Source of the DNA: Bacteroidales bacterium
GTDB taxonomy: Bacteria > Bacteroidota > Bacteroidia > Bacteroidales > UBA932
Assembly: GCA_017557535.1 (NCBI GenBank)
Contig: JAFYYM010000112.1
Span: 1 to 61,326, forward strand
Direction of reading: 5' to 3'
Length of the DNA: 61,326 bases
The notes below the pieces were generated by a model. That model did not search any database. It was not told the origin of the DNA and worked only from the letters and a program-made list of their open reading frames with translations. This document shows, in pieces, positions 45,217-51,175 of the stretch (the stretch's first letter is position 1; the number at the start of each line of letters is the position of its first letter). The translations under genes were made by a program, and so were the position numbers.

Positions 45217-48200
45217 CTAAAGAAGATGGCCGAGAAAACGGGATTTGTCCGGCTCTGACATCCCTCTCCGGGTGGCATATCGGTCTATCGCGGCCTTGTC
45301 GAGGTGGCGTATCTCGGGGTAAGAAGCATTCTCGTGAAAGAATATGAGGCCGCAGATGCATGCTTCAGGAATCATGGCACAACTGTCGAGTAGGGTGATC
45401 CCCAGCTTTTCCGAGCTCGGAAGTAGCCTTAATATATCCCGTTTGAGTGTATGATCCGGACAGCTTGAGTACCCGGCGGCGGGCTTGATGACCTTAGCAT
45501 CGGAACCCTCAGGCAGGAAGCTGATCAAATAATTGTCAAGCCACTCGGAAGCCGCCTCAGCCAGCGTCAATGTGACAGCCCTACGGACAGACTCGTCAGA
45601 GGAGGCGGTGGAGTCCATGACGCTTATCGCGAACATTCCGACAGGGGATTCGAAACCGTATTCCACCGGTGCCACAAAATCGGCGAGAGAAAGGCCTCCA
45701 GGCTGCCTGAACATCGGTAACCGGTATTCCTCCGATACGATGTCGTCACCTTCGCTGTGGGCGGTGTCAAACCTCGCGGATAGTGTGATCCGGCATCCTC
45801 CTTGGGCTTTCATTCTCTCAATAACGTCTTTTGCTTCCGCCATTAACACCTTCTTCTCAAGGTGGTCAGCATTATTCTTGACTCCGAGTATGGTGAAAAA
45901 CAGTCCCCAGTCAAAATACTCTTCAATACGGCTGACGTCGAGCCTATCCGACGGGATGTTACGGAACGGGTTACCATTGATGAAGCTTTGTGGTGGGAAT
46001 GCCGCGGAGGTTTTCGCTGAAGATTCTGCCGCCATTTTGCGCTTTGATGCCTCGTAAGCTTCCCTTAGTGCCTTTTGTCTCTCATGCTCAGTCGCTTCCG
46101 TAGCTTCGGGGTCTGAGATAAGCTTATTGGCAAGAACGGCTGATGCCGAAGCGTCTGACCCATAAAACACGTGCTTGTAAAGCGGGGCTAGCTTGACGGC
46201 TGTATGTACGGCGGATGCCGCTGCGCCTCCGACAAGTAGTGGGATAGAAAGCCCCTTGGCGGCCATTTCTTTGCAGAGTTCCTCCATCTGGTAGAGGGAA
46301 GGAGTGATAAGTCCACTCACGCCGATGATTTGGGCGCCGGTCTCAGCGGCTTTCTCCAGTATGGTCTCTTTGGGCACCATGACTCCAAGGTCTGTCACGT
46401 CGAACCCGTTGCAGGTGAAGACTATTCCGGTGATATTCTTCCCAATGTCGTGGACATCGCCCTTCACTGTGGCGAAAAGTGCCTTGGGTCTGTTTGAGAC
46501 ATCGGATCGCTCTGTTTCAAGGTAAGGTTGGAGCATCTCCACCGCGGCTTTCATGGTCCTGGCTGACTTTACGACTTGCGGCAGAAACATTTTCCCGGCG
46601 CCGAAGAGTTCGCCGACCTTTGCCATGCCATCCATCAGAGGGCCGTCTATGACCTTGTAGGCCTCACTATATTTCGCGAGACACTCCTTGATGTCATCCT
46701 CAAGCCTGGACGAGTCTCCCTTAACCAGAGCCCTTTCAAGACGCTCCTCGACGGAGGGAGTATTAGTGAGTCCGGACACTGCCACCCTCGGCACGTTAAG
46801 AGGGGGGACCGGAGCGGAGCATTGCGACGCGAGCGGTGGGGCCGAGCGAAGCGAGGCGTCCGGACCACCAATACTCCCTCCGTCGGGGGAGATGATGTTC
46901 TGGGCATAGGTGATCAGGCGCTCGGTGGCACCAGGGTCGGTATCCAGAATCACATCCTCAACCCTTCGCAAAAGCTCGGGTTCAATCTCGTCATAGATTT
47001 TAAGCATCCCAGGGTTGACGATACCCATGTCCAATCCAGCCTTTATGGCATGGAAAAGGAAGACACTGTGCATCGCCTCCCTGACCGTGTTGTTGCCTCT
47101 GAAAGCGAATGAGAGATTTGATATACCTCCGGATGTCCTGCATCCGGGCAGGTTCCTCTTTATCCAACGGACGGCCTCGATAAAGTCAGCCCCATACCTG
47201 GCGTGCTCGGGAATACCTGTACCGACAGGAAGCACGTTGACATCAAATATGATGTCAGTCGGGGAATAGCCGGCTTTTTCTATAAGGAGTGAATATGCTC
47301 TCTGGCAGATGGCTATCTTCCTGTCGAAAGTTGTGGCCTGCCCTTCCTCGTCGAAAGCAATGACTATTACTGCTGCACCTAATGCTTTTATCTCACGTAC
47401 TTTACGCAGGAATACCTCTTCTCCTTCTTTAAGTGAAATAGAGTTGACGACGCACTTCCCTTGGGCGTTTTTCAAGCCGGTCACAAGAGTGTCCCAGTGG
47501 GATGAGTCAATCATGATCGCGGCCTTGGCCACTTCCGGCTCTGCTGCTATGTGGCGGAGAAACTTCTCCATCTCAAGGCGTGAGTCCAGCATGGCGTCGT
47601 CCATGTTGATGTCAATGACGGTCGCGCCGTTCTCAATCTGCCCGGCTGCGACCCGCAGAGCCTCCTGGTAGTCTCCTGCGGCTATGAGCTTGGCGAACTT
47701 GCGGGACCCCGCCACATTGGTCCTCTCGCCTATATTCGTAAAGTTCCTGCTCCGGTCTATCTCCACGCACTCCAACCCGCTGATGTATAACGGCTTACCA
47801 GCACTATCCCCGATGGAGGTGTTGGTGAGTCCGGACACTGCCACCCTCGGCACGTTAAGAGGGGGGACCGGAGCGGAGCTGTGCGACGCGAGCGGTGGGG
47901 ACGGGCGAAGCGAGGCGTCCGGACCACCAATAGCCTCCATCGGGGAGAAAGATGGAATGGTCCTGGGACGGAGGTGGCGGATCGCGGCGGTGATGGCCGC
48001 GATGTGGGCCGGGGTGGTGCCGCAGCAGCCTCCGACGATATTCACGGAACCCTGCAGAGCCATCTCCCGGATCGCCGAGGCAGTTACCTCAGGAGTCTCA
48101 TCATATGCCCCCATGGCGTCCGGAAGGCCGGCATTTGGGTAGCAACTCACGGCACCCTCGACGAATCGCGCCACTTCCGCTATGAGCGGAACCATGTCTT

Positions 48201-48873
48201 TGGAACCTAACGAGCAGTTTAGCCCGAAAGAGATGGGGGAGCAATGCTGGATAGAGCGGTAGAATGCCTCAGGGGTCTGTCCAGTGAGAGTCCTTCCTGA
48301 CTTGTCTCCTAAAGAGACGGAGATCATTATACCTGGGCCACCCCATTCAGGGAAGAGGCGTGAGTAGGCGTAGAGAGCCGCTTTGGTGTTAAGCGCATCG
48401 AAACAAGTTTCTATCAGTAGCAAATCCACCCCGCCGGTGACGAGCCCCTTGATCTGATCCTCGAAGGCGTTGGCCATCTCGTCGAAAGAGTACGGCCGGA
48501 ACACCGGATCCTCTATGTTCTGGGGCAGGGTGAGCGACTTGCCGGTCGGACCCACGCTTCCGGCCACCCAGACTTTCCGTCCAGCCTTGTCAGCAGCCTT
48601 CCTGGCAATTCTCGCCGCCGCCTCCGCCATGTCGGCAGCTTTGTCGGCAAATCCTAGTTCTGCCTGCGATATCTTATTGGCTCCGAATGAGTTGGTTGAG
48701 ATTATATCAGCTCCTGCTTTAATATATTCGGAATGAATATCCTCCACGACTCCGGGATTTGTGAGATTGATAAGCTCGCTGTTTCCCTGAAGGCCCCGGC
48801 TCTGGAGAACCGTGCCCATAGCCCCGTCCAGGACGAGTATCCTTTCCCTTAAAGCTAGCCTGATGTCGTCCAT
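45217..48873 (-). CDS. metH: Cobalamin-dependent methionine synthase with two in-frame palindromic inserts
   Basis: 1218 residues. Homocysteine domain 1 to about 305 with zinc Cys283/Cys284 (GGCCGTTP) and GLNCSLG; pterin-binding domain from about 360 (FTNIGERTNVAGSRKF); cap and B12 domains with the cobalamin motif DVHDIGKN; C-terminal AdoMet activation domain (GYSSCPDH). It methylates homocysteine from methyl-THF. Two nearly identical Pro-rich segments, about residues 310-356 and 663-709 (both containing SAPVPPLNVPRVAVSG), lie exactly between domains and come from a repeated palindromic DNA element. The frame is intact, so the enzyme is probably functional. Follows metF after 3 bp. Confidence 0.95.
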   Translation of the reverse strand: MDDIRLALRERILVLDGAMGTVLQSRGLQGNSELINLTNPGVVEDIHSEYIKAGADIISTNSFGANKISQAELGFADKAADMAEAAARIARKAADKAGRKVWVAGSVGPTGKSLTLPQNIEDPVFRPYSFDEMANAFEDQIKGLVTGGVDLLLIETCFDALNTKAALYAYSRLFPEWGGPGIMISVSLGDKSGRTLTGQTPEAFYRSIQHCSPISFGLNCSLGSKDMVPLIAEVARFVEGAVSCYPNAGLPDAMGAYDETPEVTASAIREMALQGSVNIVGGCCGTTPAHIAAITAAIRHLRPRTIPSFSPMEAIGGPDASLRPSPPLASHSSAPVPPLNVPRVAVSGLTNTSIGDSAGKPLYISGLECVEIDRSRNFTNIGERTNVAGSRKFAKLIAAGDYQEALRVAAGQIENGATVIDINMDDAMLDSRLEMEKFLRHIAAEPEVAKAAIMIDSSHWDTLVTGLKNAQGKCVVNSISLKEGEEVFLRKVREIKALGAAVIVIAFDEEGQATTFDRKIAICQRAYSLLIEKAGYSPTDIIFDVNVLPVGTGIPEHARYGADFIEAVRWIKRNLPGCRTSGGISNLSFAFRGNNTVREAMHSVFLFHAIKAGLDMGIVNPGMLKIYDEIEPELLRRVEDVILDTDPGATERLITYAQNIISPDGGSIGGPDASLRSAPPLASQCSAPVPPLNVPRVAVSGLTNTPSVEERLERALVKGDSSRLEDDIKECLAKYSEAYKVIDGPLMDGMAKVGELFGAGKMFLPQVVKSARTMKAAVEMLQPYLETERSDVSNRPKALFATVKGDVHDIGKNITGIVFTCNGFDVTDLGVMVPKETILEKAAETGAQIIGVSGLITPSLYQMEELCKEMAAKGLSIPLLVGGAAASAVHTAVKLAPLYKHVFYGSDASASAVLANKLISDPEATEATEHERQKALREAYEASKRKMAAESSAKTSAAFPPQSFINGNPFRNIPSDRLDVSRIEEYFDWGLFFTILGVKNNADHLEKKVLMAEAKDVIERMKAQGGCRITLSARFDTAHSEGDDIVSEEYRLPMFRQPGGLSLADFVAPVEYGFESPVGMFAISVMDSTASSDESVRRAVTLTLAEAASEWLDNYLISFLPEGSDAKVIKPAAGYSSCPDHTLKRDILRLLPSSEKLGITLLDSCAMIPEACICGLIFFHENASYPEIRHLDKAAIDRYATRRGMSEPDKSRFLGHLL
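46749..46885 (-). mobile_element. In-frame palindromic element, metH copy A
   Basis: About 137 bp with inverted terminal arms (46749-46777 and 46858-46885; inner part TCCGGAC, outer part CGACGGAGGGAGTATT) around an 80-nt core (46778-46857). The core differs from copy B at 4 of 80 bases, yet the outer arms are unlike those of copy B and match each other. It encodes about 46 residues between the pterin and cap domains of MetH. Confidence 0.82.
47808..47945 (-). mobile_element. In-frame palindromic element, metH copy B
   Basis: About 138 bp. Arms 47808-47836 and 47917-47945 share outer sequence CCCCGATGGAGG and inner TCCGGAC; the core 47837-47916 is 95% identical to copy A. Same orientation and same reading frame as copy A. 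It lies between the homocysteine and pterin domains. All four core differences change the amino acid (P/S, S/A, H/Q, S/C). Confidence 0.82.
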
Positions 48874-48876
48874 CGC

Positions 48877-49791
48877 CTAGAAGCACTCCCTTAAGATCCC
48901 GACGACATTGGCGGTCTTTCCCATAGTATAGAAATGGACTGCGGGAGCGCCGCTCGCAAGTAGCTCCTTGCACTGGGCCTCACACCACTCCTGACCGATC
49001 CTGTAAACAGCCTCCTTGTCGTCCTTATGAGCTTCCAGCTCCTTGGTAAGGATGGCCGGAATATCGATTGAGAAGGTCTCGGGAAGGGTGCTCAGTTGCT
49101 TGTATGTTGAGAGAGGCTTCAATCCCGGTATGATGGGGACGGTGATGCCGGCCTGCCTGCAGCGGGCGACATATTCGTGATAGACCTTGTTGTCGAAAAA
49201 CATCTGAGTCACCATATAATCCGCCCCGGCATCCACCTTCCGCTTCATGTTGGCTATGTCATCCTCCAGATTCGCAGCCTCGAAATGCTTTTCTGGATAG
49301 CATCCGACGCCGATGTTGAAGAAACCCTCGCAGCCGTTCTCCTTTTCGAAGCGGCGGATCGCGGCGACCAGCTCATCGGCATGGGAGTACCCTCCCGGGA
49401 CTGGCTGGAAGCGTCTTTCACCCGTGAGGCAATCTCCCCGGAGGGCCAACACGTTGGAAATATCCATGAACTTAAAGTCCTGGAGCTGGAACTCGATTTC
49501 CTCCGCGGTCGCCCCTCCGCAGATGATGTGGGGGACGACATTGACCTTGAACTCCGACTGGATGGCTCCGCAGACCGCTGTCTCGCTTACGCGTTTCCTG
49601 ACTAAGCGTCTCTCAAATGAGCCGTCAGGACGCTCTTTGAACTCCACCTCATCCCTATGGCAGGTGACATTGATGTATCTGGGATTAAACTCCATGAACT
49701 GCCGGATCTCGTCCAGCAGTTCAGATTTGGTCATTCCCTTAAGAGGGGGCACAATCTCCAAAGAGACGTATGGTTCTTTCCTGTTATTCAA
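48877..49791 (-). CDS. metF: 5,10-methylenetetrahydrofolate reductase
   Basis: 304 residues, single TIM-barrel domain. VSLEIVPPLKG near the N-terminus, YINVTCHRDE, NVLALRGD, GVGCYPEKHFEA and GADYMVTQMFFD are the usual flavin and folate sites. It makes methyl-THF, the methyl donor for the MetH encoded 3 bp downstream. No regulatory domain, as in other bacteria. Confidence 0.95.
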   Translation of the reverse strand: MNNRKEPYVSLEIVPPLKGMTKSELLDEIRQFMEFNPRYINVTCHRDEVEFKERPDGSFERRLVRKRVSETAVCGAIQSEFKVNVVPHIICGGATAEEIEFQLQDFKFMDISNVLALRGDCLTGERRFQPVPGGYSHADELVAAIRRFEKENGCEGFFNIGVGCYPEKHFEAANLEDDIANMKRKVDAGADYMVTQMFFDNKVYHEYVARCRQAGITVPIIPGLKPLSTYKQLSTLPETFSIDIPAILTKELEAHKDDKEAVYRIGQEWCEAQCKELLASGAPAVHFYTMGKTANVVGILRECF

Positions 49792-49823
49792 ATCCGCTTT
49801 ATTTTTCCCAAATATAATGATTT

Positions 49824-51110
49824 TCAGATTGTTTTGAAAGCTTGGTCGAGATCGGCGATGATGTCGTCTATGTGCTCCACGCCGATTGAAAGCCTAATGG
49901 TCGTTTGGGTGATGTGTTGCTGCTCAAGTTCTTCCGGCGTCATCTGGGAGTGGGTCGTGGAGGCTGGATGGATCACGAGGCTCTTCACGTCAGCCACATT
50001 GGCGAGAAGGGAGAAAATCTTCAAGTTATCTATGAACTTCCAAGCGTCATCCTTCGTTCCCTTTATCTCGAAAGTGAATATCGATCCTCCACCATTAGGG
50101 AAGTACTTGTTGTACAAGTGATTGTCAGGGTGACTCGCGAGTGACGGGTGGTTTACTTTGGCCACCTTCGGGTGCGATTCGAGATACTTCACGACCGTGA
50201 GGGCGTTCTGGACATGCCGCTCGATTCGCAGTGGTAGTGACTCGACTCCCTGGAGCAGGATCCAAGCCGAGAGGGGACTCACGCACGCTCCGGTGTCCCT
50301 GAGGATAACGGCCCTGATCCTCGTGACAAAGGCTGCGGGGCCGGCCACGTCAGCGAATACCGCGCCATGATAGCTTGGATCTGGCTTGGCGATGGAAGGA
50401 TACCTGTCCGCATTCTTCTTCCAGTCGAACTTTCCTCCGTCCACAATGACGCCTCCCAGTGTGGTACCGTGGCCACCGATGAATTTCGTGGCGGAATGAA
50501 CCACTATATCCGCACCGTGTTCCAGAGGCCTGAATATCAGCGGGGCGAAAGTGTTGTCCACTATAACCGCGATCCCGTGCTTATGTGCGACCTCCGAAAT
50601 TCCCTCAAGGTCAGTTACATCGGAGTTGGGATTGCCGAAAGTCTCGGCATAAATCGCTTTCGTGTTCGGTTTTATGGCTTTATCAAGAGCTTCCAGATCA
50701 TTAACTCTCAATATGGTGCTGGTTATTCCCTGGGTGGAGAGAGTGTGGGTGATCAGGTTGAAGGAGCCGCCATAAAGGTTATCCGCGGCTATGATGTGGT
50801 CGCCTTCCCGGGCGATGTTTTGAAGCGCATAGGTCACAGCCGCCGCGCCGGAGGCCACTGCCAGGGCAGCCACACCGCCTTCAAGGGCGGCAATCCTGGT
50901 CTCGAACACGTCCTGGGTCGAGTTGGTGAGGCGTCCGTATATGTTGCCTGGGTCCCTGAGTCCGAACCTGTCTGCCGCATGCGCGCTGCTATGGAAAACA
51001 TAGGATGTGGTCTGGTAGATTGGAACCGCCCTGGAATCGCTTACTGGGTCCGGTGTCTCCTGCCCCGCATGTATCGCCAGGGTCTCGAGATGCAGTTTAG
51101 TCTCACTCAT
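49824..51110 (-). CDS. metY: O-acetylhomoserine sulfhydrylase
   Basis: 428 residues from ATG 51110 (MSETKLHLETLAIHAGQ); an ATG at 51143 would add 11 residues without homology. Cys/Met-metabolism PLP fold with Lys209 in HSATKFIGGHG, YGRLTNSTQDVFE and AETFGNPNSDV. The length with the insertion near DWKKNADRYPSI fits the OAH/OAS sulfhydrylase branch rather than cystathionine synthase. It makes homocysteine from O-acetylhomoserine and sulfide, feeding MetH. First gene of metY-metF-metH; an Lrp-type regulator is divergent. Confidence 0.93.
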   Translation of the reverse strand: MSETKLHLETLAIHAGQETPDPVSDSRAVPIYQTTSYVFHSSAHAADRFGLRDPGNIYGRLTNSTQDVFETRIAALEGGVAALAVASGAAAVTYALQNIAREGDHIIAADNLYGGSFNLITHTLSTQGITSTILRVNDLEALDKAIKPNTKAIYAETFGNPNSDVTDLEGISEVAHKHGIAVIVDNTFAPLIFRPLEHGADIVVHSATKFIGGHGTTLGGVIVDGGKFDWKKNADRYPSIAKPDPSYHGAVFADVAGPAAFVTRIRAVILRDTGACVSPLSAWILLQGVESLPLRIERHVQNALTVVKYLESHPKVAKVNHPSLASHPDNHLYNKYFPNGGGSIFTFEIKGTKDDAWKFIDNLKIFSLLANVADVKSLVIHPASTTHSQMTPEELEQQHITQTTIRLSIGVEHIDDIIADLDQAFKTI

Positions 51111-51175
51111 GATGTCGCTAATTTGAAAGTTCATTTTCCGCAAAGTTAAACCCGTCAGGAAATGATTCCAAGATA

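Follow-up and report, generated by a model that had tools for sequence, protein, structure and literature searches.

In-frame palindromic elements in metH and other conserved genes of one Bacteroidales lineage

The metH gene and its two palindromic inserts

The window, i.e. the whole stretch of 61,326 nt analysed here, carries on its minus strand metH, the gene for cobalamin-dependent methionine synthase (45217..48873), as a single open frame of 1218 codons (1218 aa). The adjoining ORFs at 48877-51143 resemble, judged from their translations, metF and a gene for O-acetylhomoserine sulfhydrylase, so that this would be a methionine gene cluster. metH is the host of two copies of a 140-nt element, each consisting of an 82-nt core between two 29-nt arms that are largely complementary to each other. 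Copy 1, the first in coding order, occupies 47807..47946 in the linker that joins the first MetH domain to the second; in plus-strand coordinates, its core lies at 47836..47917 and its arms at 47807..47835 and 47918..47946. Copy 2 (46748..46887) lies in the linker preceding the cap domain, with the core at 46777..46858 and the arms at 46748..46776 and 46859..46887 (all on the plus strand), and has same-site copies in the relatives G296, G041 and G188. An earlier, sequence-only reading had placed the two palindromes at 46749-46885 and 47808-47945, close to these borders, and had counted 76 matches in 80 core positions, in agreement with the identity of 0.951 between the two 82-nt cores. It was also right that both share the frame of an uninterrupted gene: both encode ...SAPVPPLNVPRVAVSGLTNT... 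in the metH frame, the peptide being ASLRPSPPLASHSSAPVPPLNVPRVAV for copy 1 (minus strand, as read by metH) and ASLRSAPPLASQCSAPVPPLNVPRVAV for copy 2.

Within metH, the two copies form a direct repeat of 114 nt (46760-46873 and 47819-47932; 95% identical). The inverted arms of copy 2 (46746-46768/46866-46888) are 91% complementary, and those of copy 1 (47798-47836/47917-47955) 72% by an ungapped measure. That the repeat exceeds chance is confirmed by the best E-values of a 137-nt query in its own genome (1e-66 against itself, 3e-46 against the second copy in metH) and by the predicted fold of copy 2 with flanks (156 nt; -90.7 kcal/mol), which lies 7.7 standard deviations below 200 shuffled sequences (z -7.7). 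No Rfam family matched 46600-48100 at E up to 1. Elsewhere in the window, a tandem pair of 300-nt repeats (415-1080; 77% identity) that is open in one frame and contains the recurring motif TALSWGGYDWSTVEAGT looks ordinary.

The inserts lie between folded MetH domains, as had been proposed: residues 309-361 (insert 1) and 660-706 (insert 2) replace stretches of 6 and 17 residues, respectively, of the methionine synthase chain in PDB 9ssp. An AlphaFold2 model of residues 290-730 (33 aligned sequences; mean pLDDT 69.7) has a confident barrel, next to which pLDDT falls below 50 at fragment residues 1-97, 376-401 and 405-414, a range that takes in insert 1 and the greater part of insert 2; the low values at the N-terminal end of the fragment are weak evidence, because the modelled fragment is truncated there.

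MetH is present at E 1e-100 in 165 of 300 genomes of the genus. Alignment with relatives, represented by 11 sequences examined at base level (of which G211, G276 and G258 stop before or within site 2) and by 32 orthologues, supports the description of the segments as inserts, both being absent from most of these sequences. At site 1, an intact core was found in 0/11 relatives; remnants are present in G048 and G188, the latter with another palindrome inside, and left-arm words persist in G211, G296, G089 and G041. At site 2, the core is plain in G296, G041 and G188 and composite in G048, while G161 carries another palindrome and G089 the arms alone. Inspection of site 2 by eye in the 32 orthologues, a set from which G188 is absent and in which G211 falls short of the site, revealed the core in two of them (L040, L072) and a composite only in L077. 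The core of copy 2 is more similar to that of copy 1 (0.951) than to those of its same-site orthologues (at most 0.889). The two metH copies therefore look mutually converted, which suggests conversion or replacement within metH.

Copies, reading frame and range of the element

A search of the own genome (3.38 Mb, 139 contigs) with the 137-nt query gave 28 matches, two of which are the element's own arms. The others mark 26 places including both metH copies, 21 of them matched over at least 60 nt; outside metH there are thus 24 places with the core (19 over at least 60 nt), and many copies lie in frame inside conserved genes, as would be expected for the repeated element that the sequence-only reading had postulated. 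In a sample of the genus, the core was detected in 24 of 61 genomes, the own one included (E 1e-3; with at most 15 candidates scored per genome, copy numbers are floors). It occurs in 5/149 genomes and 3/25 genera of a family sample (E 1e-6) and in 1/198 genomes of an order sample, namely the own one. As far as these samples go, the range of the element is one family. An exact pattern search of genome_contigs gave at least 114 stretches from many separate assemblies; the 80 titles among the matches listed refer to rumen, omasum, horse faeces and similar sources and to Bacteroidales, Bacteroidia or Rikenellaceae, with no rickettsial record among these 80. Phages and plasmids gave no match to the element, nor did IMG/VR by exact pattern.

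An nhmmer profile built from 19 copies and run over 282 loci gave 206 matches, corresponding to 182 unique copies (identical context counted once); 140 of these were long enough, and after removal of 19 near an edge 121 were left for placement relative to ORFs. A spanning ORF surrounds 94 of the 121 copies, in 39 gene clusters, and 27 lie outside, although the pooled fraction is biased by 48 copies that come from gene-targeted or other regions. Taken by source, spanning ORFs contain 16/19 copies of the own genome (0.83 for random windows), 31/54 copies of the pattern-scan loci (random windows 0.81) and 47/48 copies of the remaining set. The element thus does not shun genes in its own genome, whereas in the pattern-scan loci it lies in them less often than random windows do.

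One representative per cluster was scanned for domains; 25 clusters had a Pfam match, and metH was added via its PDB match. Judged from the Pfam matches, the host genes include fmt, aroC, ispH, ispE, pdhC, rsmF, ftsK, argD, trmB, ksgA and polA. In L169, one of the 26 matched clusters, the element lies upstream of the domain. Among 93 phased copies (one further copy was unphaseable), 82 are in phase 1, 41 in plus and 41 in minus orientation, and 11 are in other phases. Within the matched clusters, phase 1 accounts for 77 of 80 phased copies (39 plus, 38 minus); since clusters contain orthologues, phased copies are not independent, and counted by cluster majority phase 1 prevails in 24 of 25 matched clusters. 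The 13 clusters without Pfam match have phase 1 in 5 of 13 copies. In phase 1, stops are largely missing from either strand of the core, and the encoded peptides are hydrophilic and resemble linkers (TATLGTLRGGTGAERSEASGG or ASLRSAPPLASxSxAPVPPLNVPRVAV). A second frame with few stops is present on each strand (CHPRHVKRGDRS or PLLTCRGWQ type) and is hardly ever used by real genes.

The alleles of relatives at 14 sites are all in frame and open (82/82; 71 were settled at first and 11, in trmB and ftsK, with longer flanks), with lengths at a single site varying by up to ~230 nt.

The same hotspots harbour five other short repeat families (L013, L024, L008, L009 and L010 with relatives; for example GGCAAGTCCGGACCGTGGACGCC..., GCGTCCATCCTCGCTCCGCTGCGGCTGAGTACGG, GGCGGCAATGCGCCTGGGCGG... 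and CATCCTGAGCGAAGCGAAGGATCT), each with blastn matches in 10 to 28 fetched loci and none in the window; alleles carrying them are in frame as well. The alleles of L012 (aroC) and of L134 and L151 (ispE of G089 and G041) resemble an older element cut by in-frame deletion, and in the aroC of L012 a second element lies beside the remnant. These remnants look like the result of turnover at fixed hotspots.

Pairing of the arms and inversion

Over all copies, the arms have a median length of 29 nt (interquartile range 27-31, n=137). Going outward from the core, the paired fraction is 0.58-0.83 at nucleotides 1-10, 0.92-0.97 at 11-19 and 0.79-0.90 at 20-26, and falls to 0.2-0.4 from nucleotide 31 on (the values inside the arms are inflated by optimisation of the side-to-side alignment). 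Base conservation between copies amounts to 0.30-0.66 at nucleotides 3 to 28. In 62 of 121 copies, comparison of the flanks from 14 nt outward gave a match to the own partner that exceeds the 99th percentile for mixed partners. The 69 copies that have an 82-nt core and enough sequence on either side align without gaps, and in them 18 arm pairs were chosen after sequence inspection, all varying on both sides; 83.1% of their cells are paired, compared with 54.9% after shuffling and 30.7-49.4% after sliding, and their covariation score is 0.719 versus 0.233 shuffled and at most 0.241 slid. Unaided, RNAalifold returned the long stem together with three core hairpins, with compensated changes in 25 of 41 pairs. 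Changes could also be followed by strict pairing of copies at the same site (65 copies whose arms contain no gaps; 71 pairs entered the count and 15 were excluded for unlike arms): of 199 changed arm pairs, 126 differ on both sides and remain paired, 10 differ on both sides and no longer pair, and 63 differ on one side. The sequence of the arms is nearly free, and their complementarity is kept. Mismatches and asymmetries of the inner arm persist between species, e.g. in rsmF, which suggests that copying between the arms is incomplete or that a bulge is kept by selection.

Assigning copies to the same site by the similarity of the protein on either flank yields 126 pairs at 18 sites. Both orientations occur, between species, at 12 of these 18 sites, with plus/minus counts of 4/5 in pdhC, 3/3 in fmt, 4/2 in ftsK and 1/6 in rsmF. 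In pairs of opposite orientation, asymmetric arms swap together with the core in 47 of 59 cases, stay in place in 2 and tie in 10; in pairs of the same orientation, they are in place in 61 of 67, swapped in 4 and tied in 2. The rsmF copies of G211 and G000 carry arms that are almost exact swaps of each other and consist of sequence unique to that site, which fits an inversion there rather than a second insertion from elsewhere. The occurrence of both orientations at 12 of 18 sites, with arms that swap with the core, thus argues that the element inverts in place. Core identity differs little between same-site copies (mean 0.890) and copies in different genes of one genome (0.878).

Origin of the element and comparison with known systems

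We explain these data by a translated family of ~140-nt, probably non-autonomous mobile palindromes that has spread in one Bacteroidales lineage, and assign this explanation as a whole a probability of about 0.8. Each copy would form a long stem of two ~29-nt arms closed by the conserved 82-nt, cloverleaf-like core, and would be translated wherever it is located in a gene. Surviving insertions would be those that lengthen the gene by a multiple of three, in a single codon phase, and whose protein tolerates an added loop; this phase would be the one that survives because both strands of the core can be read through in it and give linker-like peptides. After insertion, the two arms would evolve as a pair, inversion between them would leave the frame intact, and decay would proceed by in-frame deletion. 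The peptides of the element, judged from the open frames, are probably made, tolerated and present in the mature proteins. The element itself would be mobile and move as a folded strand, with an enzyme presumably acting on the folded hairpin, and the likeness of the arms may be due to copying templated by the hairpin or to selection acting on the stem. Counting against the explanation are the nearly equal core likeness at one site and within one genome, the low share of genic copies in the pattern-scan loci, the persistent mismatches of the inner arm and a search for a mobilising enzyme that yielded none. Insertion is deduced from repetition, because for no empty site could a later deletion be set aside. 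In this context, inverted target duplication was considered as the source of the arms from apparently empty alleles of aroC (G041, G188), citG and argD, which could equally be deletion products.

Maintenance of the element through flipping by a recombinase, as a switch between two protein versions (phase variation), would account for the two orientations at 12 of the 18 sites with at least two copies, for the movement of the arms with the core and for the fact that both orientations are open in the same phase. Intragenic invertons, with inverted repeats within a gene and a middle part found in both orientations, have been described (Chanin et al., cited in the accessible text of PMC11868660) and are similar in these respects. 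However, the copies form a repeated family with one core, and the arms vary from site to site and are unrelated between sites, so that no common recombinase site is seen; moreover, the hosts are mostly housekeeping enzymes and the peptides resemble neutral linkers. We regard such a switch as unlikely. An ordinary MITE or REP-type repeat that lies in genes by chance, an improbable explanation in our view, would likewise be short, palindromic, present in many copies and devoid of an enzyme of its own; the 27 of 121 copies outside a spanning ORF, the presence of Y1 transposases in all eight carriers tested and TA near both arm ends in 22/138 copies (control 0.10) would fit it as well. Nevertheless, REPs are extragenic by name and the element sits in genes, and we know of no MITE or REP family in which phase lock and free but paired arms are features. 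Furthermore, MITEs mostly produce target duplications, according to the accessible part of PMC2229807, whereas shared direct k-mers of at least 7 at the arm ends, indicative of direct target duplication, were found in 0/138 copies here (control 2.3%). The Y1 transposase (PF01797) was also tried as a candidate mobiliser and rejected: among 18 genomes searched at E 1e-3, it occurs in 8/8 carriers but also in 5/10 genomes without a core match in the genus sample. Of ten Y1 loci, only one has a core match, more than 900 nt from the ORF, and the flanks carry other repeats; the element here thus does not flank the RAYT (Y1) genes. At L283-L292, these RAYT-like Y1 transposase genes are flanked by distinct palindromes of their own, e.g. 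GCATGGTAGATTCTACCATGC.

A removal or bypass of the hairpin at the level of RNA or ribosome, which would make the frame irrelevant to the protein, could draw on the very stable long stem that joins the flanks (-90.7 kcal/mol). We consider it very improbable, as a bypassed insert would require neither frame nor phase, yet the 82 orthologous alleles are without exception open and in frame, and 77 of 80 copies share one codon phase. Hardly credible, finally, are the views that the segment is an ancient functional linker shared by MetH and other proteins, or that it arose as an error of metagenome assembly. Site 2 is indeed occupied in several close relatives, and the genomes are mostly fragmented assemblies; however, the same DNA lies in unrelated genes in two orientations, site 2 is empty of the core in most of the 32 orthologues, and the copies in the own genome, the matches in many separate assemblies and the strict same-site pairs already contradict both.

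The mobile, translated palindrome favoured here resembles most the Rickettsia palindromic elements (RPEs), which are 100-150 bp palindromic repeats, some of them in frame in conserved genes, shared at the same locus by related species, with one site used by different RPE groups (accessible text of PMC3767692 and PMC2229807). Like RPEs or their Wolbachia equivalent, the element is a palindromic repeat, of 140 nt and at 26 places in its own genome, inserted in frame into pre-existing conserved genes; for an unstructured or surface placement, metH alone supplies linker positions and low pLDDT. The differences are that it belongs to another phylum, that its arms are nearly sequence-free yet covary, that its codon phase is locked and that it occurs in both orientations with swapped arms. 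The comparison draws on published descriptions of RPEs. The element works, by analogy, like an RPE, and membership in the same family is not claimed; the equivalence suggested by the sequence-only reading accordingly applies to behaviour and not to family assignment, and that reading had not included the paired free arms, the phase lock or the inversion.

Other coding palindromes are named in the accessible part of PMC2996958, namely PARCELs and repeats of the archaeon Methanocaldococcus jannaschii and of Wolbachia. The element shares with the M. jannaschii repeats and PARCELs that the palindromes are coding; PARCELs, as far as that text goes, are amphipathic tandem repeats linked to membrane or unknown proteins, whereas most copies here are single inserts in housekeeping enzymes. 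In the mitochondria of Nematomorpha, coding inverted repeats are translated on both arms and kept together, as is proposed here; both arms there encode conserved protein segments, and a repeated core is not mentioned in the accessible portion of the source (PMC6649704). Translated selfish palindromes have been described, in the literature covered, mainly for Rickettsia and Wolbachia, and no such elements of Bacteroidales were named in the titles and abstract openings searched, a coverage that leaves most subscription papers outside.

More tentatively, and on balance doubtfully, the element could represent a new class of mobile elements defined by structure and not by end sequence. Its conserved cloverleaf core would generate or maintain a 29-bp stem wherever it is located, for example by snap-back copying that templates one arm on its partner or on the target (an inverted target duplication), and, being readable both ways, the element would sit and flip in essential genes harmlessly. 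If so, several unrelated repeat families at the same hotspots may move likewise. Three questions can be tested with a large and diverging family of this kind, shared at the same sites by many genomes of gut and rumen Bacteroidales. One is how such elements get into genes when no enzyme for this is known; another is how two coding arms remain complementary although they vary almost freely in sequence; the third is how new disordered segments arise in conserved enzymes. The family also gives a caution, in that the domain linkers of these proteins can be derived from repeats.
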